A DNA stretch of 64,000 nt from Trileptium ribeirensis. Taxonomy: Eukaryota; Nematoda; Enoplea; Enoplida; Thoracostomopsidae. The notes beneath the pieces are model-generated. The model was given only the letters and a program-made list of their open reading frames with translations. It had not been told where the DNA came from and did no database searches. The stretch covers positions 1 through 64,000 of the forward strand of contig JASANE010016100.1 of NCBI GenBank assembly GCA_030248225.1, in the 5' to 3' direction. A program made the position numbers and the translations under genes. This document shows, one piece after another, positions 5,201 through 33,742 of the stretch; the first letter of the stretch is position 1, and each line of letters begins with the position of its first letter.

Positions 5201-5973
5201 TGGGATAAATATTGCAACTTTGCAATTTCACTTTGAAACATTATTCATTAAAAATTGAAAATGCTGTGCAAAAACGGACAGATGGGTTGTTTCGAGTTTA
5301 AATAATCATAATTGTTAAAATACATTTCATGAGCTGACTCGAAATTCGATCCTTCCGACAAGAACCTAGCGTCTGTATTCCACTAATTATGGCAGTCTTA
5401 AGAGCCCACGCAGCTTCGGTAAAATTGTTAAAGTTTGTTGATTTAAAAACTTCATTTTTGGAAGAAAAATAAATTGTGTAGGTTGCTAACCTAGGATTGG
5501 GTTTCCAAGCTCTTTGGCGCGCTTTAGCTTATGCTGCTCTTGAAGCTTTATGGATAGGCACCGGATTTACGATGATATTATGTACCAGTCAAAGATAGCC
5601 GAAGTTTTTAAGAGCACGCTAGTGTTGTTGAACTGCTTGTGAAGAAGACTGCTACATTTTTACGTTTATCTAGATCGTCTTATATTTTACTGACAAAATA
5701 AGGCCAGTTAGATATATTTCTTAATATGGCACGATCTATTAGCTTTACAAAGCTGTGTGTTAGGTTGGCTTGGATAGACTGGTTAGGTTGGCTGCAACTT
5801 TCGAGAAATGAACTGTGTGCATTTCGTTTGCCGATGTTAATGACTATTTTCTTATTGACTTTGTAAAAAGTGACGATATTGCCACCGTATTTTTGTCTCA
5901 GACTTTTGATGTTGCTTAAAAGAAACTGGGCACTGCTGAAGCAGGGCCGGAAACTAGACCGCTATAAGCTAAT
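2208..5973. other. no gene recognised
   Basis: Both strands hold only short, stop-rich frames. Around 3030-3100 there are a few short direct repeats of CCCGTACaaC type. No RNA gene or complete mobile element was found. The Polinton target duplication GCTAAT is at 5968-5973. Confidence 0.5.
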
Positions 5974-6175
5974 AGTAGATGAAAAAAGTTGCTTTGGAGC
6001 CCCCCGCCCAGCGGGGGCGGGGGATATCTGGGTCAAATGCGGGGTAGGCATGGCGGGGGTTATGTAGGGCAAATGCGGGGGTACGGGGATATTATTTGGG
6101 TGAGTGGGGGTATTATTTGGGTCAGCGGGGTATTATTTGGGTCAACTAGAGGATGTTATTTGGGCTGGGATGTGT
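5974..6175 (+). repeat. left terminal inverted repeat of the Polinton
   Basis: Pairs with 18695-18895. The outer 65 bp differ by a couple of bases only. Farther in, both arms consist of degenerate direct sub-repeats of the form TATTATTTGGGTCAGCGGGG, and the arms differ in how many are kept. The strand carrying the G-runs is purine-rich and could fold as G-quadruplexes. Confidence 0.93.
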
Positions 6176-6330
6176 ATTATATGGTCGATTAATTATGTCA
6201 GCGGATGAAATTGCAATCAACATGCAAATTCTATGTCGGCGGGGCACTTTCTGAGTTACAATACCTCCCCGTTACTTTACGCTTTCATATGACCTATCGA
6301 CCCTGATACACTTGTACCACCTAGAGATCC

Positions 6331-6985
6331 TTTATAAAATTTTTATAACTGATCACGTTTTCTCAAAGTTATTGCTCAACTGAGATTTTTCGCGATCAAC
6401 TAGCTGTCACTATCAATAGCGTTTCAATCTTCGATCACAAGGTTCTGCAAACCAGCAAAACTACTTGATTACGACGACGAGATCCAAATCGTGGGTCCAT
6501 CAACGTCAGGTATGGACCTCAGTTCCGTTGACAACTCTCGAGGCTTGCTCGATGACGCAGGTCCTTTGAGTCCTGTTGTTCGCGATTCAGTCGAGGATCA
6601 AATGGATCGCGATCTGAGTGAAGTGGACGATACAAAACGACTCGTGGATCTGGTATACGACCAGATCGATTTCGACAACGTGGAGGATCCAGACCTCGGG
6701 ATGGAAAATGAGTTCTGGACTGCGCTAAAAGCAATCATCGCGATACTGCAAGCGTGACGTTATGGGCGCTTATATGCTGCTCAACATCAACTACACGAAC
6801 CAGCTATACACGTGCGTGAAAGATAAACTTTCTGAATCTTGCGAGCGATACTAAATTGTAAATATAACTTGTATATAGCCATATGTGTATTGTTTCCATA
6901 TATTTTGTTTGTCTTGTGTATGTATATATCTTGATGTATAAATGTATTAATATTAACATGTAAATAAAATTTATACGGTTTATCT
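6331..6985 (+). CDS. small acidic protein gene of the Polinton left end
   Basis: A TATAAAA box (about 6334) is followed by a frame open from about 6403 to a TGA at 6755-6757, and an AATAAA signal lies near 6963, so a complete small transcription unit is visible. The first ATG in frame is at 6512 and gives 81 residues. The coding-like sequence starts earlier without an ATG (LLDYDDEIQIVGPSTSG), so the start may have decayed or an upstream exon may be missing. The product is very acidic (VRDSVEDQMDRDLSEVDD, FDNVEDPDLG) with a short hydrophobic tail (ALKAIIAILQA). I recognise no family. It points inward from the left inverted repeat, against the main gene block, and converges with the gene at 7862-8200. 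Confidence 0.5.
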
Positions 6986-7407
6986 TTATTTTTTACACGC
7001 GTGATTTAACTTGCGTGACTCTCGCGTAAGATGGATTTACATAACACACTGCCTGTTGTGATGATTCCACTATAGTTAGGAGCACATCTGGAAACGAACG
7101 TATAAAGGGTTCAATGCTAATTCAAGGATGCTGAACATCGTGACTGTTCAACAATTAGTCACCAAACGCGAACCGGCATGTGGTGCTTATTATGTTAAAG
7201 AATTGCCCTGTGCTTCATCATTCGCCATGTACCAAATGTGACAGACCTCGATAGACTATCGAAAACTGGGACATACTAGTCATGTATAGTACAAGAATTT
7301 TACATGATTAGTATGCCCCAGCTACTATTCATAGGTACGCTTGTCGCTATATGTTTCGAACGATATTGAAGTATTAAATTTACCGGTGTTACAACTGGCT
7401 AATCTTT

Positions 7408-7416
7408 TTTCTTTAT
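7408..7416 (-). terminator. candidate polyadenylation signal (AATAAA, minus strand)
   Basis: CTTTATTTT on the plus strand reads AATAAA on the minus strand, downstream of the last minus-strand gene. With the plus-strand AATAAA near 6963 it marks the meeting point of the two converging transcription units. Confidence 0.4.
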
Positions 7417-7861
7417 TTTCCAAAAAAATATTTACATTACGAAACATAAATGCAAATTACATACGGTTTCTAAGCTCATACTTTCTCTTTCGCGCGTAAA
7501 CAGCATGTGAATATACAAAAGCTGTTACGATACTATTACCTTCCGTAATGATACAAAGTATATTAGCCGGTTTATTGTCCCAACCCCTGTAACCAATAAC
7601 TTTATCGAACATTTTAAAGTATTCCGTCCGGTTGTCACCTCTTTGAAACGGTCATCACTGTTTTTATAGTTTCATATATGTGTTTTTATAGTCATCAACA
7701 AGGACAGAGTTTCCTACGACAAAATTTCCAATGTGGTTTTGTATTGAATGATGACTTAACATGAACCGTGACATTTAGGAAAGCTAAATTACCTGAACGT
7801 CACACGCAAGAATGAAGACTCGGACAAACAACACTTTAAATTTCGCGAGAGCACCCCTGAT

Positions 7862-8200
7862 CTACGTTGATTTAAATAACTTTACAAGTACTTTACAATG
7901 TGTTGTGTACAACTGAGGATATTTACCCGATAATTTATACATTGATTCCTCAAACGTTTTTCCTTTTTTCCTTTCCATCGTGATAAATTTAACTGCTGTT
8001 AGCAACGTTTCTCGTAAATGCAGTACATTAAACAATTCATCTTCACACTGACAACGCCCGTCAATATATTCTCCACTCGATTGACACTCCTTTGGAAATT
8101 CTATTACCTTTGATTGCCGAAAAACAATCTCTTCTTGAAGGTATTCATTGTGCACATAATAGACAATGTCATAGTGAGTCTTTGCTTGCCTGTTACCCAT
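7862..8200 (-). CDS. small Polinton protein with N-myristoylation signal
   Basis: An intact 112-codon frame starts at ATG 8200. The N-terminus MGNRQAKT fits the myristoylation pattern (Gly2, small residue at position 6), so the protein may sit on the inner face of a membrane. The middle has a cysteine cluster (CQSSGEYIDGRCQCEDELF) and the C-terminal half is lysine-rich and probably helical. I do not recognise the family. It is the last gene of the minus-strand block. A TATATAA box lies about 60 bp upstream (8257-8268), so it probably has its own promoter. It is one of the few genes in the element without a visible break. Confidence 0.6.
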   Translation of the reverse strand: MGNRQAKTHYDIVYYVHNEYLQEEIVFRQSKVIEFPKECQSSGEYIDGRCQCEDELFNVLHLRETLLTAVKFITMERKKGKTFEESMYKLSGKYPQLYTTHCKVLVKLFKST

Positions 8201-8256
8201 GACACGACTGTTTTGTGTGAAATCTAAATAACTACTGAAACGCTTCGAGGATTTTA

Positions 8257-8268
8257 ACGTTTATATAT
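8257..8268 (-). promoter_or_regulatory. TATA box for the 7862-8200 gene
   Basis: The minus strand reads GATATATAAACG, about 57-68 bp upstream of the ATG at 8200, which leaves room for a start site and a short leader. Confidence 0.5.
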
Positions 8269-8336
8269 CTTTCTTGAAGGACTCGCGCAAAGTCAAACAG
8301 TGCTAATTTTGCCATGAACTGAGATGCAATGTTACA

Positions 8337-8801
8337 CTAATAAAAGGTAAAACCTCGATATATTCCTGCTGCACGAATAAAAATGATGCCATGTTTGTAG
8401 CAGATTGGTAATTTCAAAAATACGTATTCAAAACCGTCATACAAATAAACAACTTGTTTTCCCCACGTCACATTTGCTGGTGGTTGTAAACGGACATTGA
8501 AATGTAGGTCTGATGACGTTTTATTGATCCATTGAATGTCGTACACGCTTATTGCATTAAACTTTACTTGTGAAGCATTCGACCAATTTTCAAAACACGA
8601 AATTTTTTGGTCCGTAATACCACGGTTTGCAGTGATTAATAATATAACACCTTCAACAACAACTAATGCAGCCAACAGTACAAGACAAAGTATGGTTCGG
8701 TTAAATTTCAATGTAGTCACCGGTGTATTGGTCATGTTTGCTCTATGAATCGATACCTTTTTAAGCATGTTTAATGAAAAACATTTAAACCATTTAAGCA
8801 T
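8337..8801 (-). CDS. single-pass membrane glycoprotein of the Polinton
   Basis: The frame is open upstream into the capsid gene. I choose ATG 8801 because its ATGCTTAA overlaps the stop of the major capsid gene (8794-8796), a compact overlap typical of such elements. ATGs at 8768 and 8735 are alternatives. The 154-residue product has a basic N-terminus and one transmembrane segment (about residues 37-58, TILCLVLLAALVVVEGVILL). An outer domain of about 95 residues follows, with four N-glycosylation sequons (NWS, NAS, NKT, NVT) and two cysteines (FENWSN region and LPICYK). This is the layout of a type II membrane protein with the C-terminus outside. Its function is unknown; a virion or membrane protein is plausible from its position behind the capsid gene. 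Confidence 0.6.
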   Translation of the reverse strand: MLKWFKCFSLNMLKKVSIHRANMTNTPVTTLKFNRTILCLVLLAALVVVEGVILLITANRGITDQKISCFENWSNASQVKFNAISVYDIQWINKTSSDLHFNVRLQPPANVTWGKQVVYLYDGFEYVFLKLPICYKHGIIFIRAAGIYRGFTFY

Positions 8802-10086
8802 ATTTGTTCCAAGCCAAATCGTGATTAGAGTTAAATTGAAGTTCAGCAGGAAATTCACCCATTGCAAATATAACTATTGCCTTGCTGAGTTCGCTCGAGA
8901 AGTCTATACATAATCGGAGTTGTCCATTCTCTGGATTACTCAGATAGTTACAATCACTGCTATGGTCTCGACTCAAATCAATGCAAAATATTTGATATCC
9001 AGCACCAGGTTTAAATGCTGTTGGGTTTAAACCCAAGTTATCATTTTTATAATTCAATGCCTGCAATGTAAAATAATACCACCGTAATGCACTAGAGCTT
9101 TTACAAGGTACAGTGATGTTACACGGATAGCGATCGTCGTTCATAAATATAGTGAAATGATCCATATCCGGAAGGGAAAATTCGAACAAATTTTTCTTTG
9201 CCGAACCTCGATAAGCTTCCTGTAGAACGAACCATATGTATATCCTACGAGGTAGATTTCCTTCAAAAATTGTCCAGTCTACGTTTTGTAACCCTTTATT
9301 TACAGATAGGGCATGTATTGTATACCTGATTCCGAAATAATTTGCTCCCGTGGTACTTAAGAGTCTAGATTGGTGTTCTAGTGCCTGTTTTGTTAACTTT
9401 ACTTTAGAAATGTAAAGTTTGAACTCATTTATTCGAATGTGATATTCCGAACTACCGTCGTGTAAAAGCTCTAGATTTGTTGGACTCCTAACAAAGTCTA
9501 ATTCCATACGGGTTTTCGGTGGTAAATACTTTGGGTTTACGTGTGAATCTGTTACAACTGGGAAGTATAGTTCACACTTATGAGACATCATGATGTTTGT
9601 ATTCCTTTGTACACCTCGAGAATTATCAGCTGTTATTTAGTTAAACATGTAAGGTGCATCGTCATCATATATTGAACCGGTGAGATACTGTTTTCGACAA
9701 TCAGCGCTGGTGTGCAGGTGATAAAGTACGTATGTCATCCACGGGTAATGTTATTGATTGAATGTTATAGGTTCACCATTAAGCTTCATTTCGATAGCAG
9801 AAAATAATGAATACCCGAACAGATTGCAAGGTATTATTAATTAGTCAGCAGGTACATTTTTTCCGTCTGATTGTAGTACTTGTATCTCAAGGTAAGCATA
9901 AATTTGAGCTAAATCTATTAAATCATAAGCACTTTCGCTTATTTTAAATCTCGGTATATCATCAACGTCGGAACTAGGTAATGTGGCTTCACACGCTACT
10001 TCAATAATTTGAGTGAAACAATGGAGTCCTGTGTAGGATAGACGCCCTTTCCAGTTTAATTTCTCAAGCCCACACGTTTGCGCCAT
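8794..10086 (-). pseudogene. hexon-like major capsid protein (F54H12.2-like), three stops
   Basis: One frame runs from ATG 10086 to the stop at 8794-8796, 431 codons, close to the length I expect for the invertebrate proteins annotated 'F54H12.2-like', which accompany Polinton polymerases. Recognisable parts are an N-terminal segment with YDLIDLAQIYAYLEIQVLQ, a middle FGYSLFSAIEMKLNGE, HYPWMTYVLY, and a C-terminal half with LPRRIYIWFVLQEAYRGSAK and LFEFSLPDMDHFTIFMNDD. I take it as the double-jelly-roll capsid protein from these resemblances; the fold itself is not visible from sequence. The gene is broken only by three in-frame TAA codons (9841-9843, 9751-9753, 9637-9639) and has no frameshift. 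The downstream membrane-protein gene overlaps its end. Confidence 0.8.
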
Positions 10087-10255
10087 TTTTTCTGTTGTTT
10101 GACAAGTTTTCGTCTCCTTTTAAGAGTTTTGGGTTTTCTGGAAGTTATTTTACGTTTTCGAACAACTGGTTTATTTTTCGTCTGATAACCTGAACACGTC
10201 TTGAAACTATCACGTTCTGCAGTTTAGGTGAATTGAAACAAAGTGGAGTAGACAT
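10056..10255 (-). pseudogene. tiny, strongly basic protein (core-like), frameshifted
   Basis: From ATG 10255 the reading begins STPLCFNSPKLQNV. After a frame change near 10190 it becomes extremely basic (VRKRKITSRKPKTLKRRRK, then KKWRKR) and stops at 10056-10058, overlapping the start of the capsid gene. The Arg/Lys density suggests a DNA-packaging or core protein. This is inference from composition and from its place between the two capsid genes, because no domain can be recognised. Confidence 0.4.
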
Positions 10256-10301
10256 TTTATAAAAGTGTAAGATTAACAACAATGCAAGTCTTTTTAAGCA
10301 T

Positions 10302-10914
10302 TTATGTGAACCACAATCGTAGCAATAGTTCAGATTGTTTAAAGAATCTAACAGGTTTGAAATCTGCATCTACCACTTGCAACTGGAACGTTTTCTGCAG
10401 GGTATTGTTTAGTTGTAGATATACAGGATTATTGCAATTTTCTGAGATGACATGTAATATAGGTTTATATTTTCCGTTAAAAAGTCTCTCTTTTACAAAT
10501 GAACATAAGATAAAAAGTGGTTTATTATAGGTTAAATTCAAGGGTTTTGCACCAATGTGCCTTTCATTTTAAAATGTTAACCTTGAAAGCCAAATAGAGC
10601 TTTGAGTTCTTCTGATAATTTTATTTTTGCATCGTCCAAACAATAAATATTTATTTTGTCACATGTAGGGTCTACACTAAACGTAATTTTTGAATAAAAT
10701 CTGTTTAAAATTCAAGCAGCATTTCAACGTCATAACCATCATCCAACGTTAAGGTTTTCCATAATTTTGCATCTAAGTATTCCACAGTGCTTTTGTTCAA
10801 ATTTATATACTTTTTTGGTACTTTTGCTTCCAAAACACGGACATTAGTAGCGCAAAACTGAGTCGGAAATTCAACTGATGCATTTTCCAAACTACAAATT
10901 ATCACAACCTCCAT
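10302..10914 (-). pseudogene. penton-like minor capsid protein, frameshifted
   Basis: The reading starts at ATG 10914. The N-terminal block (about 70 residues) has FPTQFCATNVRVLEAKVPKK and LTLDDGYDVEMLLEF. A one-base shift near 10703 leads into ITFSVDPTCDKINIYCLDD and LSEELKALFGFQG, followed by a TAA near 10573. After another shift near 10545 comes YNKPLFILCSFVKE and a C-terminal block with NNPVYLQLNNTLQKTFQLQV, ending LLLRLWFT. The order of a 'DGYYD'-like segment, an 'LGFQG'-like segment and a C-terminal beta-strand block followed by a short polar tail is what I know from Polinton/adintovirus penton proteins. It directly precedes the small basic gene and the major capsid gene, as expected for a structural module. 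At about 200 residues it is shorter than some relatives. Confidence 0.65.
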
Positions 10915-10928
10915 GTTTATTTATTTGA

Positions 10929-11971
10929 TCACACATGGTTATAAAAGCTTTTAAGCATACTATGTACAATAGACACATAATTATAATAGCTTTCAATGCT
11001 ACCACAACCCGTAATCACTACTTTTCCTGTTCTAAATATTAGCGTCACGCACTTGTCAAGTTTTAAAATAACTGCATTATGTAACTCAGGTTCGTACATT
11101 ACTCTTAAATTGCATCTCCATTTATTGTACAAATTGCATAAATTTAGTTTTTGCCCCGTATGTAAAAGTCTAGCTACATTTTTAACAGTAAAGCTAAAAG
11201 GTGCTAAACAATTGTAATTTAATTTGAAAAGATTTTCGCGAACCTGACTCAATATTACAAAAGCTTCATTTTCTGACCGGACACCAACCAAAACAATTTT
11301 TCCGTTAGAAAATAACAAAACAGTACCTCGTGGTTTGAATTTCCGAATTCCACCACTGAACGTTTTTGCATTATAATTAAAATTATCAATGTCATATGAT
11401 GAATATAGCAAGTCTATACTACAACCTGCATTACATAAGATTGTCATATTCGTATACTTGGGTTCGTCCCGGAGTTCCATCCACAGTTGCCCTAACACAT
11501 TTTTCCCTGTCCATTGTCTAATGTCACGACTCGCTGGATCATATATACTCTTGCCTATAACCCAATAATTATCTCATTCGGATGCATCTGCTATTAAAGC
11601 ATTCTCAGTCCCAATAAGAGCTGCTCTTATGTGTGGTAGTTGCTCAAATTTTGCTTTTAGACCAACCTTCATTCTAGATGCCGCATTACCGTGTTGTATC
11701 CACTGGTTTTCATCAAAGTTTAAATTATCTCGACCAATTTCTTCTGTTGTGATGGTTTATATGTATTCATAATTGCGTTGTAAGAAGCGTCATCACTGAA
11801 ATAGCGAGCTTTCTCGCTCTGATACCACTGTTCTGCGCAGTTGTACTTAACGCCATTTACGAAAATTTTACCAACGTTAAAATTTCTGAATAAACTCCAC
11901 CCCGAACGAAAAAGTACGAGTGGTGTATTGTCAACAGAGGTGCAGTATTTTGTATGCTCCATTGCAATCAT
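10929..11971 (-). pseudogene. NADAR domain fused to TATA-binding-protein core
   Basis: The gene starts at ATG 11971. Residues about 30-160 form a NADAR (YbiA-like) domain: VNGVKYNCAEQWYQSEKARY with the conserved AEQWYQ glutamate region, then KAKFEQLPHIRAALIGTENA, then WTGKNVLGQLWMELRDE. NADAR proteins are N-glycosidases or binders linked to NAD/ADP-ribose metabolism. Without any stop or new start the same frame enters a complete two-repeat TBP core (about 11450-10929). Repeat 1 has TVLLFSNGKIVLVGVRSE and repeat 2 has MYEPELHNAVILKL and LIFRTGKVVITG, including the paired F-x-x-GK-V-x-x-G strands whose phenylalanines intercalate TATA DNA in true TBP. Breaks are one frameshift near 11727 and an in-frame TGA (11574-11576), both within NADAR. 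Separate ancestral genes joined by decay are unlikely because the join is seamless. A transcription or host-control role is inference. Confidence 0.85.
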
Positions 11972-12009
11972 AACATTAAAATGAATTTTGATTCTAGGGA
12001 CGAACCTTT

Positions 12010-12045
12010 ATATAGTTTTTCATGACACGCTATGATTGGTTAGTT
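12010..12045 (-). promoter_or_regulatory. CCAAT and TATA boxes of the NADAR-TBP gene
   Basis: The minus strand reads AACCAATCA (12035-12043) and, about 20 bp on, ACTATATAAAGG (around 12010). The start codon is 11971, so transcription would begin about 10-20 bp before it. This is the clearest core promoter in the element. Confidence 0.6.
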
Positions 12046-12062
12046 AGTTAGTATATACTTTC

Positions 12063-12463
12063 CTATGATGACGTCATTTTGTCTTTTCTCCCCCACCCAA
12101 ACGCCGACCTTGGTACACCTGAAAGTAGGGTCTCAAACTTTTCAGAATCTAAAGGTCGTGGAGGTGAAAGGTTGATATCAGGCACAAAGTATTTAATAAG
12201 ATCAAAAATATTTGATCCAAAGGTTTTATCCGGATATATAATTTGATTATTTTCATTGAGGTTTAAATTTTTAACACTATTCAGCATTAACTTCGCTTTA
12301 TTTCGCAAATTTTTGGGAAACATTAAAGATAGGTCATTTTTGTGCTCACGTTGGTCGTACACAGAAACTTCATTTTTTATTGGTGTACGGGTATTATCTC
12401 GTAACCCACCATTTCGCATTACATCAAGCAACTTACGGGAACTACAGCCATTTTACGTGCCAT
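12063..12463 (-). pseudogene. conserved Polinton structural/accessory protein, frameshifted
   Basis: ATG 12463 opens MARKMAVVP. A one-base frame change near 12438 then leads into RKLLDVMRNGG and a 122-codon frame to 12063. Landmarks are KAKLMLNSVKNLNLNENNQI, TFGSNIFDLIKYFVPD and a C-terminal SAFGWGRK. I know this arrangement (a start rich in K-M-x-V-V-P, a 'LLN...N..G.I.....GSNI.DL' centre) from genes that sit next to F54H12.2-like capsid genes and Polinton polymerases in invertebrate genomes; their function is not established to my knowledge. Its start overlaps the end of the preceding basic gene (12453) by 11 bp. It may be a virion component. Confidence 0.55.
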
Positions 12464-12716
12464 AATATTTGATGAAATAACCAGTTAAATATTTCACAAG
12501 TTTCGGTTTCAATATTTTTCTTTTCTGAAAAGCTGTTGTTTTCATATTTGCGAGCTTTTTAAGAATTTTTCTACGCGCCTTTACCCTCGCTAGCGCGTTG
12601 TGTGCAATTTCAGAAAACGCTTGTGCAAGTGAATCTGGAGCAACCTTTACAACCGCTGTCACAATTCTTGAGGATGCTTCGTTCAAAAACTTTAAAGAAA
12701 TTTTATGTTATTCCAT
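12453..12716 (-). pseudogene. small basic core-like protein with early stop
   Basis: ATG 12716 is followed after one codon by an in-frame TAA (12708-12710), after which the frame is open to 12453 (about 85 residues). Features are KVAPDSLAQAFSEIAHNAL and then a run of basic helices (VKARRKILKKLANMK, FQKRKILKPKL). This matches in outline the 'APxxLI.AL.E.A.N.L...KK' small proteins encoded beside invertebrate Polinton capsid genes, which resemble adenovirus-type core peptides in charge and end in a basic tail. The usual C-terminal glycine-rich hydrophobic end is not evident. The DNA-binding core role is inference. Confidence 0.5.
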
Positions 12717-12761
12717 ATGTTGCGACATGTTATTCCTACATCTATCAAAATATAGTTCTTT

Positions 12762-13037
12762 TTAAGCATATACATACATCTGATCATCATCAGAAAATAT
12801 ATGTCGAACCCTTAGAATATTTTCTGTGTTTGCCTTCAGATCTAGGAAAAGATATCCATATGGTGTCTTTGTAGCTTGTTCAAAAGCGTGCACGAGAAAT
12901 TGCGGTTTTGAGGGCCACATTTGAGGATGAAATCGACGCCTTCTTGGTTTACGTCCCAGCAATGATCACTCTCATATCTGCGTTCGACTCCATCGCTTCG
13001 AATGAATCATCTGGACTGCGTCGCTTTTTAGTTTTCC
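12762..13037 (-). pseudogene. small conserved Polinton ORF, 5' truncated and frameshifted
   Basis: Starting at the deletion join near 13037, the reading gives KTKKRRSPDDSFEAMESNAD. A frame change near 12965 then gives RRRRFHPQMWPSKPQFLVHA and a well-kept C-terminus TPYGYLFLDLKANTENILRV ending YVYA. I recall similar short proteins with a '(K/T)PYGYL..DL....R.R..IF' ending next to Polinton polymerase genes, without a known function. Its 5' part is fused to the polymerase remnant. Confidence 0.45.
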
Positions 13038-15195
13038 GTTTAATGGAGAACGTCATGTAGTCCTTCATCTCTTTAACGATGCAGTCAAGTTCAAGACCCA
13101 TTTCAGAGCTAATGGAGCCAAGTTCTTGCATGATGATGTGACCATCGTACCGTCGCAGGTTGTGGAAAAACACTGTAATATCTCGACTCAGACGATAGCC
13201 AATGTTACATTTAACGTGTGCTGCACCACGATACCTGCCACAAAGGTGACAATGGTCTTTAGCCTTTTCCTCCCGTTTCATGTACCCACCACACAAGTAA
13301 CAGTCAACTGAATGGACAAAATCAATTTTGTCAGCGTCTGTCATGTTGAGTGTTTTTTTCTCGTTAGTATATTTGGTCTGAAAGTCTTTAGTTAATTGAA
13401 TAATATTGTTCAAAAAGTTTTAACAACATTGGGACCGCGGTATATAGTCGGGTTTACGATCTCCACACGATCGCTGCAGCATCCGAAGCAGTCCACCAAC
13501 CCGTAGCCACACGGAACATGCCGTTGGTACGGGTTTACGAATGACGTAGAAGCAGACGGTACACAATGCTGGATTTTTTCCAGTGTGCACTCAAAGTCTG
13601 CATATATTACTTAGGGACATCGCTGCATTCGATGTAGGTTGGTGAATTTTAGGATAGAATTTTCTGGTGTGATCTTAATGCGGGACGGTTTGTCGTTGCG
13701 ACAACGATCGAGATGCTCTGTGCGTTGTTCCCGGGAATAGCATGGGAAGAGACATCGATCGCAGAAATATTTTCTGCGCTGATAACCACGCTGATCAAAC
13801 AACACGCGTCCAAATTACGGACTAAGCAATAATGATTGTCATATAACAGCAAATGAATATATTGTTCATTAGGGGACTTTGATATATACAGTGGGAAAAT
13901 ACAGTTATTTTCGAGTCCATATACAGTAATAGACATATTATTCTGTTTTTCAAACCGTGGAATGTCCTGCAACTTCACGGGATAATCTATTCCATTCATG
14001 TTCAGTTCCTTGATATATTGTTGATACCCGCTGACGCGCTGTGGATGCTGGGTGTGATCGAGATGGTGCAATGCTGCGAGAATGCTCCACAAGAAGCAGC
14101 GATTGTCACCGTTTTGGACGTTGATGACAGCACGTTCGTTGCGGATGTACGGAGGAAGTTGTTTATATGTCGATCCGCGAAGAGGTTGGTAAACACTGAT
14201 GTGCACATCTGCATGCTGAACATCCTGTAAGATCCATCCTGATGCCTTGCCTGGAAATCATCCAGCTTCTTTACCAGTTCAACAAACATGACGGTGATTT
14301 CATCGTCGATGTCTGATCCTGGTGGGATGGAGCAGGATTTAGTGTTGAAATGTACCGTCATCTGCGTCCCGTCCAGTTTGCCCAGCAAGCACTTGACGCT
14401 GATCCACAGCTTAATACCGCGACACCTCACAGAGTGAACCAGTTTGCCCACCAAGTCCTTCGATTGCTGCAAAAATATAGTCAAATCGGAGATGGGTTTA
14501 TTAGGGAGTAGGTAGTAGCTCGAGAGGTACCCCCGGAGCGCACTGATGCATCGCAACAGTCTAACGCTGGAATTCTGATCAACAACAGATGCCTGGTGCT
14601 TGCAGCGGTTGTCGATATGTGGTGTAGGACCGTCAACTCGACGTTCGTTTGTCGGTGGTTCGTCAACGATATCCTGCGCCAGCCGCTGCAAGATGTCGAG
14701 GTTCGTCGACTCTTCTTGGATGGTCCACTCCGATGTCGACGTTGACGGTCGGGCTTCAGGCGCATACGATTGTTGCGATGAATCAGCAGTTGGTTTTTGA
14801 TGCAGCGCACGACACTGATTCGCTGCATTCCACAGCGTTTTGTGCTGTTCCATTGTGGAAATCATTGATGTTGGGGGTTGAGCAACGGTCGATGTTGACG
14901 GTTGGTCAATTGCCGTTGTCGTGAGATGTGGGATTGAAGCTTGCACCGACGCTGACATTTGCACTTGTTCGCGTGTCTGTGCGTGCACGGATGTACATGC
15001 TTGATCGTGTGCAAGGAATTCGTCCATGTGCGGGTGCTACTTCTGAATATGCCTTTGTGCTATGTCTTTGCATGCAAACATTTTGCCGCACCAATGACAT
15101 TCTACTTTTTGTTTCATGTGTACGAAGTTGGTATGTCGGTGTAAATGGTCGCTACGTTTAAAGTATTTATTACAGATTGTACAAATAAATGCCAT
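13038..15195 (-). pseudogene. protein-primed-type DNA polymerase B, N-terminal half only
   Basis: From ATG 15195 two C2H2-type zinc fingers (CTICNKYFKRSDHLHRH; CHWCGKMFACKDIAQRH) are followed by a Ser/Thr/Gln-rich linker and a conserved region about 14450-14210. Next come YQPLRGSTYKQLPPYIR, NRCFLWSILAALHHLD, a KYFCDRCLFPCYSREQRTEH finger, the exonuclease I motif VIYADFEC (about 13608), an endonuclease-VII-like cysteine/histidine block (CYLCGGY ... KDHCHLCGRYRGAAH) and exonuclease II NLRRYDGH. After MTFSIK the sequence jumps at about 13037 into a different gene, so the palm and thumb (polymerase catalytic) parts are gone. Breaks are a TAG at 15037-15039, frameshifts near 14206, 13806 and 13413, and a TAA at 13611-13613. 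The family replicates Polinton and adintovirus DNA. This copy cannot. Confidence 0.88.
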
Positions 15196-16370
15196 CTTTT
15201 AAGGACTTCTAAAACTAAATACATTACAGTGCAAGCAATAGCAGTGTAACGCCATCGATGCTAGTCGAAGGAGAGAGTTGCATCATGTTTTTTTGATAAC
15301 TTGCGATTACGAAGCAACGTTGGTTAACACAAGTGACATTATTAATGTATTTGAGCCTCACGGAAACCGTTGTTCATTGCCCACTACAAAATTGAAAATT
15401 TTTGACATGTTTTGGTTCATTATGTTCTCTCAATGCTACATATAGCATCGGGTTCAGCAACCGTTTTTGGACCACGGAAACTGTGCTACAATGGTTCATT
15501 TCCATCTTATACCCAACATATAAACTCACATGTTTGGTTTCAAAGCCGTAATAAATTGGTTCACATGTGGAGGGAAACATAGTCATAGCACATATATACC
15601 ACCATAGTACACACACATATATACATACATATATTTCAGGGAATAGCCGGAATTCCGTTTCCGGTTGCGCAATTCCGGTTCCGGCTAATTCATGTTCCCT
15701 GATATATCAAAGCGGGAACATGCTAACAGACGCTTGAATATACGGTCAGCGTCAGTTATCAAAATTTGAACCAACTCGTACCTTGAGTTTGGTCTTGTTT
15801 TATCCTTTAATGTTAGACTTTGGATTTGGGTATGGTTGACGGGAATAGGATGGTTTTGTTCTGACTAGAGACATAGTATGAATTTACACCACTAGATATT
15901 ATACTTAAGTTAAACGATGGAACTTGTCCGCGGACCCAATAATAGATTTGAAAACTTAAATTTTGGTGAATACCATTTTTTCGCAAAGATTAAGACTCTT
16001 CAGGAAGTTAAAAATTAATAGTGCTGAGCAACAATGCAAATTCCAAGACCAGTTCGCTGAATGATCGGTCGCCACCGCCGGATTTGTTAGCCCACCAATC
16101 CATGATGACTGAATCTATATATAGCTTAGACAATCAAATATGTGTGATTAATAAGGAGACCCTCCAATCGTATCGTTGAGTTTGTTCTTTAAATCTTAAC
16201 GCGCGTCTTAGCAGAAGGTATTGTATCACACAAAAGATTTACAAGATCAAATGGGAGCTGTTTACAAATTACCCGCTATACACAAGACCCCACCACTCGT
16301 TCAGATGTTTTCCGCCACATGTTGATGAAGACTCAGTTAGGGGGCGCGGGGCTAACCATTAAAAATTTCG
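15196..16370. other. Polinton interior without a recognised gene
   Basis: No convincing frame on either strand. It contains a 65-bp hAT-like miniature element (15637-15701) and separates the polymerase start from the plus-strand reading that begins near 16437. Missing genes such as integrase may have been deleted or eroded here. Confidence 0.5.
15637..15701. mobile_element. short hAT-like inverted-repeat element
   Basis: It starts CAGGGAATAGCCGGAATTCC and ends GGCTAATTCATGTTCCCTG, so the ends are inverted. The interior is made of CCGG-type palindromes. The 8 bp outside are ATATATTT and ATATATCA (6 of 8 equal), consistent with a hAT target duplication. Relatives start at 35851 and 54647. Confidence 0.55.
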
Positions 16371-16823
16371 TGATATAAAAATGAGTGAAACATCGATTCG
16401 ATTTCTCACTTTCATTCAAACACAGTTGTTTTGATCATGTCTTGTCAAACGTTTTACAGTCGTCGCTTACATGCGACTGTGAAGCTGTCCCAACATAGGG
16501 CACTCGAGTCCCTCTCCCGCCAAAAAATCCTGGTTTTTTAAACCCCTTAAGATGGTCAGGCGGATTTTAAAAAAGGGGTCCCAAATCAAAAGTCATTTCC
16601 GCCGGCGTCGTCTGTTCTTCCGCTCCTTTCGAAAATCAGTGGTAATGCGCGGCTATACCAACGAGCCCGCACGTTACGCTATGGTAATCTCATGGATTAC
16701 GCCGTCATGACTGCTTTTTTGGTCAGCTCTCCCTCAGAGTTGGAGCGTGAGATGGACGCAGTGGATGTGGATTGTTATGTCTTTCCCATAGTAGTCTACA
16801 TCACAGTTATGAATTTTTTGTAA
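16371..16823 (+). pseudogene. decayed plus-strand gene of the Polinton right half
   Basis: A TATAAAAATG box lies at about 16374 and an ATG at 16437 opens SCQTFYSRRLHATVKLSQHR. After a TAA near 16540 the next frame gives a very basic stretch (SQIKSHFRRRRLFFRSFRKS). After another change near 16690 a third frame reads MDYAVMTAFLVSSPSELERE and ends CYVFPIVVYITVMNFL at 16823. The amino-acid composition and the smooth hand-over between frames suggest one gene with two frameshifts. It would be divergent to the polymerase. I do not recognise it, and the joining of frames is inference. Confidence 0.35.
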
Positions 16824-18694
16824 TGATTTCCATAATTTAACCCTGGCGAGTAACTTAGCCCCACCCGCTGGAACTGCCAATTCCGACCAAACTGCAACGT
16901 TGTAGATTACACAAACAGATACTTATAGCTGTTACAAATGTACAAGCGTTCTCAGAAGTTACAATATCGCGACTTACATATGTAATTGTTACTTTTTTCT
17001 TTACGGTGAGGTCTGAGCGTTTGCGTTATTGTGATATAGTTATGTGGATTGGTAGTACATACTGGAGATTGAAAGCAAACCGATTCTACACAGGTGGACA
17101 TTACCCTGACTACTGCGAGCTTTAGTGTGACTGCACTGTGATAACTATGCTTGCTTGGTGGAGGCCCAGTAGCATCGGAGTCTAGACATCGCCCAGGTGG
17201 ATCGAACGTATCGCCCCTGAGACTATTTGATGAACGTAGTCGCGGATGCTAAAGGGATGGGAACAAGCACGAAAAAAGGACGGGAATCCGTTGAGCCTAA
17301 CGGAAACGGTCGACCCTCAAGGGAGTCAGGCACCTGACATGTGGACTGACGGTGTCGATCACCTCCTGCATCACCGGGGGTTGCCCGCGTGCAGCGAAGT
17401 CCCCATGCCTGCACGGCTCCAAAAAAGCTGAAATAAACAAATGTTTTTCTTCATTGATTGTTGAAATACATTGCTTAGTCACACTTTTACATAAATTTGA
17501 AAACATACATCATCAAATGTATGTCTGACTTTACGTAAATTTTATTTATATTCACGTGATCGCGTTAGGTTTCTAGTACAAGTTTCGCACACATAGTTGT
17601 ACATAACATAAGTTAGCTAATGTCTTTCGACAGACTAAACCAAAGAAAAACCAAAAGGTTTATGATAGTGGCGTTACATAGATATGAGTAAGGTTCTATG
17701 AATTTACCAAATCTCAGCTCAATGTCAGCGAAATTACTAGTTTACTTATCAAAAAATACTTTAACCCTAGACTTGTGCGCCTAAACATACAGTAATACTC
17801 ACTAAATCTTGAACTTTGCCTTCCGCTTTATCAAAAAGTTGTTTCGAACAATAATGTGTGTATTTTAATGTTAACTTTAAAAGTGCAGGAAAATCCACAA
17901 GTAGTTTTCACAAATATGTGTTAAACTTGAAGTAATTTTGGATACATTGCGCTACATAGATCGAAATATTTTTCAAATGTCCATGCGTCTTTGTTAACAT
18001 GCCGATAAGTCGCAATTTGCGCTTCCAGCTGAGAAATTTCTTTCTACAGCTACACTTTTAACAAAACAAGTGTAAGTATTACAATACATTATTGCATAAA
18101 CAATATACTTGTTGCACGATACTGACCCAAAAAATATCCAATCAGCCTGTGTTTACCACAAAGTTTTCTGCGAAAATAGTGTATGAAAGCAAACGACGAA
18201 GTGGGAGGGGGTCCAGATATAGAAATATCAAATTGTAAAACAGACGCGGAAAAATTTAAGAACGATGATAGTTTAACAAAAACAACGAGTCGTATAACTT
18301 GAAAGACACTTAATAAACAATTTGCCCATATTGTTTTGAAATACTATCAATATTAAACTACAACACAAACTACTATTCTTCTACTGTTATGAAACGATTA
18401 AGTCAATATAATTACAATCGCATTTTGTAATACTTGCAAAAATACCACATGGTGTCAATGGAATGTAGGGCTAGAATTCAATTGCGGAATATGAAAGTTT
18501 CAATCATACTGTGTGCGTGCACATGCTTTCAAATTCAAATCTATAAGTCCATTATCAAGTTGTGTGCAGTTTACAGTTTATCACGAAATATACTATATAT
18601 ATGAAGAAATATATTAAATAAAATGGACGAAATCGTGCTGTTCTGTGCAAAAAACGTTGTAGCTAAGTGTTCACAGAAAGGCATTGTTTTAATC
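16824..18694. other. Polinton interior without a recognised gene
   Basis: Short frames only. At 17100-17430 there is a stretch of higher GC that ends in AATAAA near 17432 and might be the 3' end of an eroded gene, but I cannot identify a protein in it. Confidence 0.4.
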
Positions 18695-18895
18695 TTAGCG
18701 AACCCCGCCGACCAAATTAATACCCCCGCCCACCTAAATAATATCCCCGCTGACCCAAATAATATCACCGCATTTGACCTACATAACCCCCGCCAAGCCT
18801 ACCCCCGCATTTGACCTAGATATATCCCGCAATTGACCCAGATATCCCCCGCCCCCGCTGGGCGGGGGGCTCCAAAGCAGCTTTTTTCATCTACT
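18695..18895 (-). repeat. right terminal inverted repeat of the Polinton
   Basis: Inverted partner of 5974-6175, ending CATCTACT at 18888-18895 and followed by the target duplication GTTAAT. Its C-rich strand shows the sub-repeat CCCCGCTGACCCAAATAATA several times. Confidence 0.93.
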
Positions 18896-20090
18896 GTTAA
18901 TTACGGGCCTGAATGGTTAGTACATGCGTTTTATTGAACATAATGTATGTTAATTGCGGGACCGTTAAAATTATCGAAAATTAGTACGAGGTCCTAATTT
19001 CGTGCCATTTTTGTTAAAAATTATTATTAGACCCGAGAGTTTAATACCAGCATAAGCTATAAAGATAAAAAAATAAACGTTTGCAAAGGATACCGAATAA
19101 AACGAAGTAAAAATTAAGCTGAGCCCGACAGCGATTATGAGTAATAGGTCGCACTAATACCTTGTAATAAAAGGTTTGCCGGGCGATTAAAATTCCAAAA
19201 AGTTTTTGTAGTCGAATAATAAGCGAAAGTAAAAACAAAAGCAAGCAAAAAATGAACAACAATGTAGCAATGCGTGTACTATATAATGTATAACGGGTCT
19301 ATGACGGCACCTTGGGTTTGAGCAGCCAACATGCGAAAATGATTCAACTACAAAATAAGTACTGTGCATTACATTTCCAGTCCTCATGAGGCAACTTCTT
19401 CTCGATCAGTGCCACTTTAATTTTTATCTGAATTTTGTTCGGCGTCAATGCTGTCACCGGAAATTTTCGAATTTTTGGCTGGTGGCCCAACTAAACCAAA
19501 CGAAGTGACCAGCGAATTATCCGACGCAGGCCGTGGTACAAATTCACGAGTTGGAGTAGACGTAACTGGCGGATTGACAAAATCTGATTGTGATACGTTA
19601 AAAGTAGCGCATAGGTCGGGTAACCGAGTTAATATTTTACCCAGAACCGTTATGCAAAAGCGTAATGTTAACTATACTGTCGGACGTGCTTATATTTCGG
19701 CGGTCACCATCGCCATCGTCAGAGCGTCGAAAGTTATAACTAATGATAAGTTCCGTAAAAATAATTAGTAAAAGCAAATCCACACCATTAATATTATTGC
19801 ATAAAACTGAAAAGGAAATTAGGCTAAATGCTGACATTAATTAGAGAACAGCATCAGGGGTCTGAGGAAAACAATGTCGTTTAGCTTCGGTTGCTTATCT
19901 CTGATTGTGAGATTCTCTTAAATTCGAAGTATAACCGTTCAGATGTGAACTTTTACCACCTATTTGTGAAATGATAGAGAAATCAGATGGGTTGGCTTGA
20001 TTTGTGACCACTGTGAATGTCTGAAAATTGCTGAATTATGCGGCGTTTACGTTATAAAGGACCCCCCATGTGAAAGTTTTGTCCATCCTG
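18896..20090. other. no gene recognised
   Basis: A plus-strand frame at 19448-19768 (106 codons, starting LSPEIFEFLAGGPTKPNEVT) is the only longer reading. It has no recognisable domain and no splice context that I can defend. Confidence 0.4.
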
Positions 20091-20300: not shown

Positions 20301-20323
20301 CCATATTCTAAAAATAAATTTAT

Positions 20324-23436
<3,113 letters not shown>

Positions 23437-23497
<61 letters not shown>
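23437..23497. repeat. (AT)n microsatellite
   Basis: About 60 bp of AT dinucleotide, ending in the palindrome ATATGATATATCATAT. Confidence 0.97.
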
Positions 23498-23499
<2 letters not shown>

Positions 23500-26400
23500 A
23501 TATCATATAAAAATTAGTGCTCTTTTAATGTTATACGTCATGTACCTATGCATATATAGGTACCCGCCTGAACTACTTAACCTCTATGTTGGTACGACGG
23601 GACGGCGCACGCCACCACTCCGCCACATTTATCCTTAGGTCATTTGGACAGCATGCAATTTCATATTAAAATAAAAGCTTCGAGATACCGCTGAGTTGCA
23701 ATATGAAATCAATGGTCCTCACTCAAAATATATTTTGTGAAATTTAAATAAATTTTCTTTGAATTTTGCACCACCAGATATTTTTTAATTCAAAGAAATA
23801 TTTCTTGAAATTTCAAAGAATTATTTTTGAAATTTCAAAAATATGTAATTTTTTTAAAATAAAATTTTGAATTTCAAGGAATGCTTTTTTGAATGCTAAC
23901 AGAATGTCTGGTTGTGCAAAATTTAAAGAAATTTCTTTTAAATTCACAAAAACCTATTTTCAGTGTAGTCCTTGCTCTTTTATCACCGTTAATTTATAGA
24001 AGTCGATAAAACGGCAGGAAAGCAGTGCTATCACCTAAAGGATTGACATCCTTGAAGGCTCCGGTCCTCCGCCCTGGAAAATTTTAGCAAAATTGTAAAA
24101 ATAGGGCTAAATATGGCAAAGGTAAAATTTGGCAAAAATGAAAGGGATATCCAATGGGCAAATCTACATTCTGAAAGACCGCCACCGCCCGTCGCCCTCC
24201 CTTGCTAAGGCGAAGGACCTTCGAGACTATGTCTTAGTTGATTTTTCTAATAATTTTACTTTATATCCATGTCATCAGGCAGGTTGAAAAATGAATAACA
24301 CAAGCTTTGAAAAATTGCATTACTGCTGCCCCGTAAAATTCAACCTCGTGCGAAAAAAGTCTAGGTACAAGTAGTTACGCATATGCACCAGATTCATTGC
24401 ACCACGGAAAGAAAAATTATTGGGCCACATTTGTTCCGGAATGATAATAGTTGTCAGAATAATTGATTGGATTCAAAGAGCGTCCGGGATCTAATGGCTA
24501 TACCTTTTGATTCGGTGCACTTAACAGCAAAAGGCAATTTCATAGTAATTATTTGATTGAAGCAGACACGTTTTCTACAGAGATAAATCACAGGTTGCAG
24601 TTATCTCTTGATTAAACACAACGCTTATATGAATATTGTATATTTTCCAACCTTTTACTGCTAAACGACGATTATATTCCGGGAATATGCTAAAAACGTT
24701 AAGGAGCGCCGGTTAGTTTATATAAATTGTCTTAAATTCACAAATTTCATAATTTATGTACCACTGTTTTAAAAATAATATGGTTTGGGCAATAAATTTT
24801 TTTGCTAAAGTTTGCGACATATTTTTATTTCTACACTCCGATGTCATTATATCAAAACCTGCCGGTATAGTGAATAAATCGATTACTGCTGCTCACGCGA
24901 TAAACCATTAAGTGTACGAAATACATTTATTGAAAACACTTTAATTTCAGCGCTGTTTGTCAATGCATTCGGAATTTAATCCTACAGATTAGCTGTTTCT
25001 TACATTTCATGTAATAGTTTCGCTAGTAATATCGCTGTTTCTAAGAATGATAGTAGTAGTCGGGCTGAACGTAGCATGTAGTTAAGGAAAATCCAGTAGA
25101 CACAGACGCATTATGTATTTTTATTTATTATGTTTGTTTATCCTTGTTTTTGTTTCTTTTATTGCTATGTCTTTTTTGTTGTTTTTGATGCATTGTAGGT
25201 AGTTAGCTAGAGCGTAGTTATGTTTTAGCTGGGGTTAGTCTACATTAATCGACCGTTCTTTTATAATGATAAAAATTGTTGGGAACTGAACATAATGTGT
25301 CGTAGGTTGTGATACCAAGGTTGTGATGATGGTATTTGTAAGCGTGATCGTGAAGCGGGTTTATAATGCGGTATGAAATCTGGAGGAAGGAGTTGGTATA
25401 TTCCATTGTATAGCGTTAGCTTTTTTAGACTATTGCACTACCCCACTAATCTCACACCACACCCACAAAAATTCCACAACGTAGCCTCAAAAAAAGAAAC
25501 TGTAACGTTCTGCCGGCAACAGTGTACAACAAGGGAACCAATAATCTTACAGCGAGGCAGACAAAAAGTCGCTCTTTCTCCAAATGTTCAGTAATCGTCC
25601 TATATATTTATGTAAATTTGAATTATTTATGAAATTTGAATTTATGTAGTTCTGCTAGCACGGAGATTCATCTAAAATTTGTGCTTGGTGTTTGTTCATC
25701 AGATTTATGGGCGAGGAATTTTACTGTTACCCTCCAAAAAGTGGGGCTCCTGTGATCTCAGAACTTCTGATTTGGCGTTCGGTGGGCCTAATTGCTGCTC
25801 TATGTGCACTTAATTGATTACATATATATTCAAAACTAACTAACAATTCTAATTTTTTGTCAGTCACGAGAGTAACAAACAGTATTGTACAAAACTATAA
25901 AGTTAAGTAGCTTAAAGCTACACCACGGCGCAGTGTACGTACTATAGTTAACGGTGATGTTGACTTCTAAATAAATGAAGTGCTGCATTACGTGAAAATA
26001 GTACATTGAGTGGTGTGAGGTATGGCATTTCAGGGACACTATAATAGATGTGACAAGATCCGTAAGAAGTGTCGGTCCGCCCCGGCTCGCTTTTAACCTT
26101 GGTCGATCCGTAGTGCTAAACCCACAGATAATCTAGCTGCCTTCGCTACTTCTAATTCTCGCTGTTCCTGCCAACTGTAACATTTGCCAATAAGTATCCC
26201 AAACAGATGATGTTTGCTCTGTCTTATCTTTCCTGCGTTTGAGTGGTAGAATAAGCTGTTACAAAGTGTAAGTCTAATTTTTGGATTATAAGAAATACAT
26301 TAATTTTTCCATATTTGTATTCAAATTTGACAATTAGGCTGACGTCAAATTCTCAGAACCGAGCATTATAAAAAGTGTAAGGAACTGAACTAATCGGGCA

Positions 26401-31589: not shown

Positions 31590-32760
31590 CCCCAGCTGTA
31601 CTGGGCTCCCGGTTTCCACTCTAGTTCAGAATGGGGCCGTATTATGTGTTGTTATCAATATGTTTGGTGCGCTATCATGTTACGGCGAGTAGTATAGTTG
31701 TTGATAGGATTGGTGTTTGTTTGGCAATAATTTTAAGCTCATGTTGTGAAATCTGTGGTGACAAAATCGTTATAGCCATCAGGCGAAAGTTAAGACTTGG
31801 ACACTTGTCTCGGCACTAGCGTTTTTCGCCTCGTATTTAAATGCCGCTGATCCAGGGGCGCTATCTTTCGCCCGCGCTTCAATGTTTCTTGGATTTCAGC
31901 AATTGAAACAAATTCATTCCACAAACAAACTCTCGCCCGAGATTAACTTTTGTTCGGCGCAAACTAAAACTCTAGTCGTTTTCTGACCCCAGCCCTTGGC
32001 TCTTGCATGCCGCGGCACCAGCAAAAGTTTCTCTGGGATATCGTAACCGTGGGTTTTTCCTTAAGCTATGCGACTATCATAGTTCTTGTTTCGTTTTTGC
32101 GGAGCACTTGCCTGTGTTAAAAGTGTGCTTCATGTTTTAGAACTAACTGGAGTACCGGAATTCGTGCAAATCAAATGTTTTTGTATCATATCTCTGCTCT
32201 AAATGTACATTTCAATCGCTGTATAAAAAGCCCCGCACTGGGCACGTTTAGTGAACTATAGTATCGTGTCGACAACTATTATTTCTATCGCCTAATTAAA
32301 TATTATGAGTAAAAGAAATTTGAACCGGTCTTCTCTTTGTTTTCTATCGGCGATAAGGTCACGGTTTTGTTTGTTATTGGTTAAAGTGCCGGCAACCTAA
32401 ACACTCGTTGTGGCGACGAGTGGACTTAATGTAGTTTCGTCGCGCTTAAACCACACAGTAAGGCATACGTCCAACTAATGGACTCTATCCAGTCGCAGGG
32501 CTATTATCACCATCGGCTCCAATTAGCGTACCACTATTCTACCGCAAGGAACATACGAGAACTACCCATTTCGGCCCACCGGGTTTCGAACGGGATAGTT
32601 ATGTCCAGGGGACCTCAACATACCACTAGACACGTACGCAAGTTAGCGGGCCCTACCCTTATGAACACTAGGGCTAGAGGTAGGCGGCCCCTCCTTTGTA
32701 GGGACATGATTAGGCGATTAAGCCTTTCCGACCGCCTCCCGCTACAATAATATTTATTGT
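31590..32760 (+). other. possible solo LTR-like or promoter-bearing repeat
   Basis: This block has higher GC than its surroundings, a clear TGTATAAAAAGCCCCGCAC box at about 32220, and 150 bp later a TGGCGACGAGTGG motif (about 32412) that resembles the primer-binding region seen after Gypsy-type LTRs. A 90-codon plus frame at 32478-32750 is Arg-rich without a recognised domain. No second LTR was found in the window, so the call is tentative. Confidence 0.25.
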
Positions 32761-32799
32761 GAATAATTTTTATGTCGATAGAAACAAACCACATGTCAA

Positions 32800-33672: not shown

Positions 33673-33742
33673 ATATTTTATTTTGGACACAACAGCGAAC
33701 AACGCCAGCTATCATTCCTTCATCGTAATCAGCAAGACTTAC

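Follow-up and report, generated by a model that had tools for sequence, protein, structure and literature searches.

The window, the 64,000-nucleotide stretch of Trileptium ribeirensis DNA analyzed here, contains a decayed Polinton/Maverick element (5974–18895) with inverted ends (AGTAGATG...CATCTACT). The element is flanked by 6-bp repeats, GCTAAT (5968–5973) and GTTAAT (18896–18901), that differ at one position, and it thus displays the terminal inverted repeats (TIRs) and 6-bp target duplication by which the Polintons of animals are recognized. It contains sequences related to NADAR domains and to the TATA-binding protein (TBP), read from the minus strand. A TATA box (TATATAAAG, 12006–12014, minus strand) lies 5′ of the NADAR start, in a position similar to that in the clade-A relatives described below, and two small conserved ORFs are situated farther 5′ of NADAR (12063–12707, minus strand), in an order common to the related loci L046, L047, L049, L072, and L074. 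On the 3′ side of TBP are the pieces of an ORF of ~206 aa (10302–10920, minus strand) that is minor-capsid-like by position only and for which a Pfam match is absent in the two relatives checked. These are followed by a major-capsid-like ORF (8794–10119, minus strand) in two pieces (9841–10119 and 8794–9636) that resembles, by eye, an ORF of L046, L047, and L123. Among relatives of this ORF, Pfam family PF16903 was matched in L071 only, at an E value of 0.034 that falls below the cut-off, and no family was matched in L047; the putative capsid assignment rests on gene order and resemblance. A PolB-like gene is represented by its broken N-terminal part (12949–15036, minus strand), including an endonuclease-VII-like segment (PF02945, E 7.9e-6). 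The strings YLDANN and TDTDS, both present in relative L122, are absent from the minus-strand frames of the window, and an ATPase-like tail was recognized at about 12920 by eye against L122. With its capsid-like ORF split and its PolB-like gene reduced to N-terminal pieces, the window element is decayed. Elsewhere in the window, long (AT)n runs at 20303–20422 and 23430–23503 form the inverted-repeat pairs ranked after the TIRs, and overlapping long ORFs occupy both strands at 32759–33940 (243 aa on the plus strand; 378 and 218 aa on the minus strand).

Relative L122 lies on the same contig (C19986) as one of the NADAR–TBP pairs described below (L084). It contains a 1359-aa PolB-like ORF together with two features shared with animal Polintons, a retroviral-type integrase with a chromodomain (rve 1.1e-11 and Chromo 1.6e-11 in a profile search of L122) and an A32-type packaging ATPase (Pox_A32 5.1e-6, above the cut-off). 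The 1359-aa ORF includes the strings YLDANNLYGW and TDTDS, which we take to be PolB motifs. It matched no Pfam polymerase profile, and its best 60 PDB matches listed include zinc-finger chains and no polymerase. Near the Polinton end at a further locus (L123:2727–3344, C5982) is an ORF with a CCHC-type zinc knuckle that appears, by eye, gag-like in the manner of a retrotransposon. Unlike the Polintons described in the literature searched, the elements studied here carry a NADAR–TBP module.

In the window, this module spans 12007–10929 on the minus strand and consists of pieces of a NADAR domain (PF08719) and a complete two-repeat TBP (PF00352). The N-terminal NADAR piece (11720–12007; profile positions 24–74, E 4.3e-8) is read in its own frame, which ends in a stop. 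The middle piece (11574–11756; profile positions 70–123, E 1.2e-6) lies in the TBP frame and ends at an in-frame TGA, and the C-terminal remnant of ~37 aa (profile positions 126–161, E 3.1e-4) shares the segment 10929–11573 with the complete TBP. NADAR is therefore interrupted by a frameshift and an in-frame stop inside the domain, and it is broken around the region of the catalytic glutamate (E125). From the C-terminal stretch of NADAR, a 214-aa frame (11573–10929, minus strand) continues stop-free into TBP. The original prediction, that the C-terminal NADAR signature runs without stop or restart into TBP, accordingly holds for the last ~37 NADAR residues and fails for the domain as a whole, where the frame change and the TGA intervene. 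Because the N-terminal piece lies in the other frame and the TGA follows the middle piece, the window encodes no intact NADAR–TBP protein. The two TBP repeats that had been described are present, with PF00352 matched in two stretches (E 2.1e-28, 98.4 bits) and TBP chains recovered from the PDB by phmmer (best 1.5e-15). The AlphaFold model of the 214-aa frame displays block pLDDT values of 80–98 over the TBP part and mostly low confidence over the NADAR remnant. The top 44 Foldseek matches in the PDB (E ≤ 1e-10) are, by title, TBP chains or TBP-holding complexes; 1cdw, 1ytb, and others match at E values of about 1e-14, consistent with a predicted two-repeat TBP saddle fold.

We examined 108 loci from the same 687-Mb genome. 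The best 150 of 2317 NADAR candidates and the best 150 of 975 TBP candidates were scored, and a search with the 214-aa piece yielded 152 matches with the best 150 of 1063 candidates scored, so that the resulting counts are lower bounds. Other kinds of transposon, such as the Tx1 LINEs from which oyster NADARs are known (PMC12477816), may account for some of the 2317 NADAR-like first-look candidates. Ten places are represented by two loci each, and the 108 loci thus correspond to 98 places, among them the window and two exon-like loci of canonical TBP (L015 and L024). Sorting separated 10 loci without one of the matches, 31 with a match in pieces, 11 incomplete loci, 7 with an internal stop, and 9 duplicates from 40 distinct copies in which both domains are complete and stop-free. 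None of these 40 copies encodes a fused NADAR–TBP protein. TBP is in the −1 phase relative to NADAR in 31 copies, in the +1 phase in four, and in the same frame in five; in the last group a stop and a 111-nt gap separate it from NADAR, and where the phase is −1 or +1, the stop that ends NADAR falls near or within the first TBP codons. A stop-free frame holding both complete domains is found at 0 of the 108 loci. NADAR and TBP had been proposed to form a single gene, and two separate genes in intact relatives had been named as the observation that would refute it; separate genes are what the intact relatives in this genome carry. Open frames of 333–363 aa were also considered as fusions and rejected, as they represent the TBP frame crossing NADAR in a different frame.

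Several loci depart from this pattern. L007, L008, and L009 (C16926, C2766, and C17792) contain a more divergent NADAR without a TBP match. L007 and L009 also carry an ATPase-like ORF and an ORF resembling, by eye, the 145-aa upstream one, which overlaps the NADAR frame by about 190 nt in L009 and is joined with NADAR in one 331-aa open frame in L007. Two other loci (L090 and L091; C15737 and C1730) encode a divergent 196-aa TBP type that is 28% identical to a clade-A TBP and is also situated behind a NADAR.

Both domains look constrained in the relatives, as judged from dN/dS (NG86 method, with saturated pairs dropped in clade B). In clade A (6 copies, 15 pairs), the medians are 0.17 for NADAR (0.06–0.65) and 0.13 for TBP (0.11–0.55). 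The corresponding values in clade B, drawn from 10 of its 22 copies, are 0.13 (0.07–0.26; 36 pairs) and 0.19 (0.10–0.27; 44 pairs), and those in clade D, from three of five copies, are 0.07 (2 pairs) and 0.22 (3 pairs). Constraint on each half had been proposed as a check, and both genes look constrained (medians 0.07–0.22 by clade); the fusion itself is not conserved. On the branch leading to the window TBP, we counted 17 synonymous and 11 non-synonymous changes against codons invariant in the six clade-A copies, giving an omega of 0.18. This lineage was therefore probably active before this copy decayed, with most of its divergence arising in an active element.

The key residues of TBP, with intercalating and TFIIB-contact sites placed on the assumption that yeast numbering applies, are largely retained across the 40 copies. 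The first intercalating site is Phe and the second Tyr in all 40, and the third is Phe in 32, Tyr in 7, and Thr in 1. The aromatic residue is mostly lost at the fourth site (Leu in 22, Phe in 13, Tyr in 1, and a gap in 4), and both glutamates of the TFIIB-contacting EPEL motif are kept in 40 of 40. In NADAR, numbered as in the Phytophthora nicotianae protein (PMC11543638) with an alignment anchored on one glutamate, E43, K50, K75, W89, and E125 are kept in all 40 copies and D130 and W133 in 39. The R79 position is Arg in 27 and Lys in 9, and the D86 and R93 contacts are not conserved. PMC11543638 describes the residues listed as catalytic or ADP-ribose-binding, and PMC11125620 presents a glutamate at the E125 position as the mark of the YbiA subfamily; the glutamate in 40 of 40 copies therefore places them in that subfamily. 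The original reading of one Polinton as carrying both NADAR and TBP was correct, and, judged from these residues and the dN/dS values, both look functional in the relatives.

We consider it likely, from sequence comparison, that NADAR and TBP form a two-gene module in which NADAR comes first, that the two proteins are produced separately from overlapping or neighboring frames, and that the apparent fusion reflects decay. NADAR precedes TBP within about 110 nt in all 40 copies, although the loci were picked by these very matches. This constancy fits co-expression without proving it, and it weighs against a fairly unlikely alternative in which the two are unrelated accessory genes that became neighbors by chance, their overlap being a by-product of compaction without functional link. 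The presence of NADAR without a TBP match in L007–L009, another Polinton-like family of the same genome, is in keeping with that alternative.

Under the two-gene reading, NADAR and TBP would probably share one transcript from a TATA promoter 5′ of NADAR. A TATA box precedes the pair at −52 in six of six clade-A copies, at −42 in two of two clade-C copies, and between −93 and −150 in 11 of 14 clade-B copies; the three clade-B copies in which none was found (L084, L086, and L100) are loci that begin within about 140 nt of the gene. When the 120 nt upstream of listed ORF starts (ORFs of at least 95 aa) were scanned at five clade-A loci, the sole other TATA-like match was located within NADAR, 33 nt 5′ of the TBP ATG. 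The suggestion that TBP serves the element's own TATA promoters is weakly favored by the TATA box before the pair, whereas the scarcity of other TATA-like matches goes against it.

The extent to which the TBP open frame overlaps NADAR differs among clades. It amounts to 64–70 nt in clade A (6 copies), 10–95 nt in five other copies, 304 nt in clade C (2 copies), and 253–577 nt in clade B (22 copies), while clade D (5 copies) displays a 111-nt gap instead. In clade B, the TBP frame is open through nearly the entire NADAR gene. Of the 22 clade-B copies, 21 have the second NADAR ATG in the TBP frame (the exception is L101), at +62 in 19 copies and at +134 in L081 and L085, and the +62 ATG has the context GGGATGG in the 12 copies inspected. 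No clade-A, -C, or -D copy has its second ATG in the TBP frame; L019 and L020, which are in the +1 phase, do. Viral overlapping genes read from a second AUG, such as P/C of paramyxoviruses, are similar in that a long frame overlapping the first begins at a second ATG out of phase with it. They differ from the present case, in which the predicted overlapping product would extend an old, folded domain at its N terminus.

An in-frame slippery heptamer is absent from the NADAR core of 38 of 40 copies, including all 22 of clade B, and a classic slippery-site −1 frameshift was for this reason rejected as the main route. Together with the second ATG in the TBP frame, the missing heptamer makes leaky scanning the best guess. 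In each of the 14 clade-B copies inspected, the first AUG is flanked by A at −3 and G at +4, a strong context that should limit leaky scanning. An ATG lies between the TATA box and the NADAR start in four of 14 clade-B copies (L077, L078, L080, and L085); only in L085, where it is at −27, do more than 30 nt separate it from the TATA box on its 5′ side. All six clade-A copies have such an ATG at −14. In clade B, initiation at AUG2 by leaky scanning would yield a TBP whose N-terminal tail, up to ~146 aa long, is basic and hydrophilic. It is unlikely that programmed −1 frameshifting or splicing instead joins the two frames after transcription in clades A–C. The predominance of the −1 phase (31 of 40) and the open −1 frame along clade-B NADAR are what a frameshift product would require, but the lack of heptamers, the existence of +1-phase and gapped clades, and an openness of the whole gene that exceeds the need of a late frameshift all oppose it.

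The clade-B −1 frame contains far fewer stops than expected. The copies were listed by phase and by an overlap of more than 240 nt, which is the trait tested, and the list corresponds to one complete clade of the tree with none left out. Over the NADAR core, the −1 frame has 4 stops, whereas 119.0 are expected from 2000 synonymous codon shuffles, none of which has fewer than 93. In the +1 frame, 173 stops are present where 213.3 are expected, which is fewer than in any shuffle (minimum 191); the shuffle null is thus imperfect, yet the −1 effect is far larger. A third-position T occurs before AA, AG, or GA in 4 of 607 cases (0.7%) in clade B, compared with 482 of 1652 (29.2%) elsewhere. The same comparison gives 79/192 versus 209/461 in clade A, 121/178 versus 177/308 in clade D, and 68/178 versus 155/361 in the five other copies, none of which has such a deficit, and 8/58 versus 50/154 in clade C, where the deficit is partial. 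Control trinucleotides are near expectation in the 14 clade-B copies tested. L076 and L081, which represent deep clade-B lineages, differ at 55% of third positions, and both frames are open. The open tail of clade C is also longer than shuffling predicts (P = 0.0023). In clade A, the short overlap does not exceed the length expected by chance (P 0.93 and 0.85) and therefore provides, by itself, no evidence for a graded series of overlaps. Some copies were picked with long open frames in view; as a check, the NADAR list was crossed with the TBP list. This gave 60 NADAR–TBP pairs no more than 1.3 kb apart, of which 44 were stop-free with identity not exceeding 56%; the TBP frame reaches 280 aa or more in 40 of these 44 (the exceptions are C18448, C5022, C8057, and C2456).

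The amino acids encoded by this open frame appear free to vary. The extension is conserved between clade-B copies to roughly the degree seen in the unread +1 frame (for example, 38% versus 41% identity for L076/L081), and third-position divergence is about equal in NADAR (0.325) and TBP (0.344); there is thus no sign that the tail has a role as a protein. With a pI of 9.2–10.0 in four copies, the extension is basic; it is also hydrophilic, and only its openness seems to be selected. We think it very unlikely that the open −1 frame is non-coding and merely follows a shift of codon usage toward G+C-rich third positions in NADAR. GC3 in clade B is indeed 0.56 in NADAR against 0.27 in TBP, the extension is unconserved, and the +1 frame is also mildly stop-poor; however, shuffles that preserve codon usage still yield 119 stops, third-position T is nearly absent only where a stop would arise, and openness persists between lineages in which about 55% of third positions differ. 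The shuffles and the third-position pattern led us to reject codon usage as the sole cause. On balance, clade B appears to be a case in which nearly all of NADAR is dual-coding: AUG1 would give NADAR and AUG2, in the −1 frame, would give TBP with an overprinted basic tail of up to ~146 residues. The frame would be held free of stops, and its amino-acid sequence left free, across near-saturated lineages, with the overlap ranging by clade from a gap to almost the full gene.

The junction that suggested a fusion in the window is explained by its comparison with the nearest relatives (82–88% identical), against which a few bases, in a number not divisible by three, are missing; the NADAR stop was lost as a consequence. 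At seven of the 108 loci, one of them the window, a single stop-free frame combines a portion of NADAR with some or all of TBP. Of a NADAR profile of 149 positions, these frames cover 115–149 in the window, 75–144 in L071, 1–130 in L074, 1–88 in L095 and 1–120 in L097 (both with TBP cut), 1–48 in L099, and 57–98 in L108. The most complete, L074, joins its NADAR portion to a whole TBP in 351 aa. At L054 and L069, NADAR and TBP share a frame, but NADAR carries stops. At L052 (1447–2670, C6375), TBP and the next downstream gene form one 408-aa open frame beside a NADAR with one stop, which is another decay-type join. That a genuine fusion is ancestral, with the window preserving it and the split copies derived, is extremely improbable: the open junction frame in the window, the parts joined at L071, L074, L095, L097, L099, and L108, and the constraint on the window TBP would suit it, but intact copies, drawn from clades that together show all three phases, are never fused, a stop or frame change interrupts NADAR at each of the seven partial-join loci, and the separate genes of intact relatives rule it out for this genome. 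Since the intact relatives keep NADAR and TBP separate, the window junction is a by-product of decay in a single copy.

A search of mostly non-subscription literature yielded, among the papers listed, no description of NADAR or TBP in a Polinton, and a term search of PMC11071308 gave no match. TBPs of large DNA viruses (NCLDVs and mirusvirus-like elements) have the TBP fold in common with those described here. BFVD matches to TBP include a Heterosigma virus, mimivirids, iridoviruses, and others, and PMC10675990 reports sporadic TBP genes in putative mirusvirus-derived elements. In IMG/VR, the TBP alignment recovered seven loci, with TBPs 27–33% identical to a clade-A TBP; in the elements described here, TBP adjoins or overlaps NADAR. 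None of the seven is Polinton-like, as judged from all ORFs of at least 120 aa in L115 and L119 and from the TBP surroundings alone in the other five; five are NCLDV-like, and L115 and L120 have a GC content of 0.54–0.55 (by eye). The N-terminal NADAR piece recovered six IMG/VR loci, and both of those inspected (L001 and L002) are stand-alone NADAR genes. No Polinton-like contig with a NADAR–TBP pair was found among the nine of 13 loci inspected, mostly around the match. The 214-aa window piece and the window major-capsid-like ORF had no IMG/VR match, nor did alignments of the major-capsid-like ORFs or of the divergent TBP group. A single-sequence protein search with the 214-aa piece gave 0 matches at E ≤ 0.001 among 83 candidates. 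The TBP alignment retrieved 42 proteins from the protein collection, including P0001 and P0002 (one contig each). These two share 56% and 51% identity, respectively, with the divergent TBP type of 196 aa and are its nearest relatives found outside this genome; four of the other 40 were inspected and are ordinary-looking TBPs.

The NADAR described here resembles YbiA-subfamily hydrolases, such as E. coli YbiA (2b3w) and P. nicotianae NADAR (8bau), in its catalytic Glu/Lys/Glu and several ADP-ribose contacts, as described in PMC11543638 and PMC11125620, and differs in lacking the D86 and R93 contacts and in being Polinton-encoded beside a TBP. NADAR domains have also been reported from retrotransposons, namely Ectocarpus Gypsy elements and Crassostrea gigas Tx1 LINEs (PMC12477816). 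In both settings NADAR has been taken up by a eukaryotic transposable element; the retrotransposon versions are, in that account, domains of retrotransposon proteins, whereas the NADAR described here is encoded as a separate gene, and by a DNA element.

The conserved residues and knowledge of the two families make it probable that NADAR is a YbiA-type hydrolase of ADP-ribosyl-guanine and that TBP brings host TFIIB and Pol II to the DNA of the element. During infection or transposition, such a hydrolase would clear ADP-ribose marks or intermediates of the riboflavin pathway. The NADAR–TBP gene pair is real, constrained, and, as far as the literature searched extends, undescribed, and the overprinting in clade B is its most surprising part. 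The window also serves as a caution that domain fusions read in decayed elements may have been created by the decay itself. The clade-to-clade differences in overlap give insight into the origin of an overlapping gene and of a new protein tail, and with it a direct test of whether selection can keep a frame open without constraint on its sequence. If the two-gene reading is correct, this Polinton family would encode a basal transcription factor of its own, with an ADP-ribose hydrolase next to it, which suggests that these elements may both steer transcription and meet ADP-ribose-based defense.
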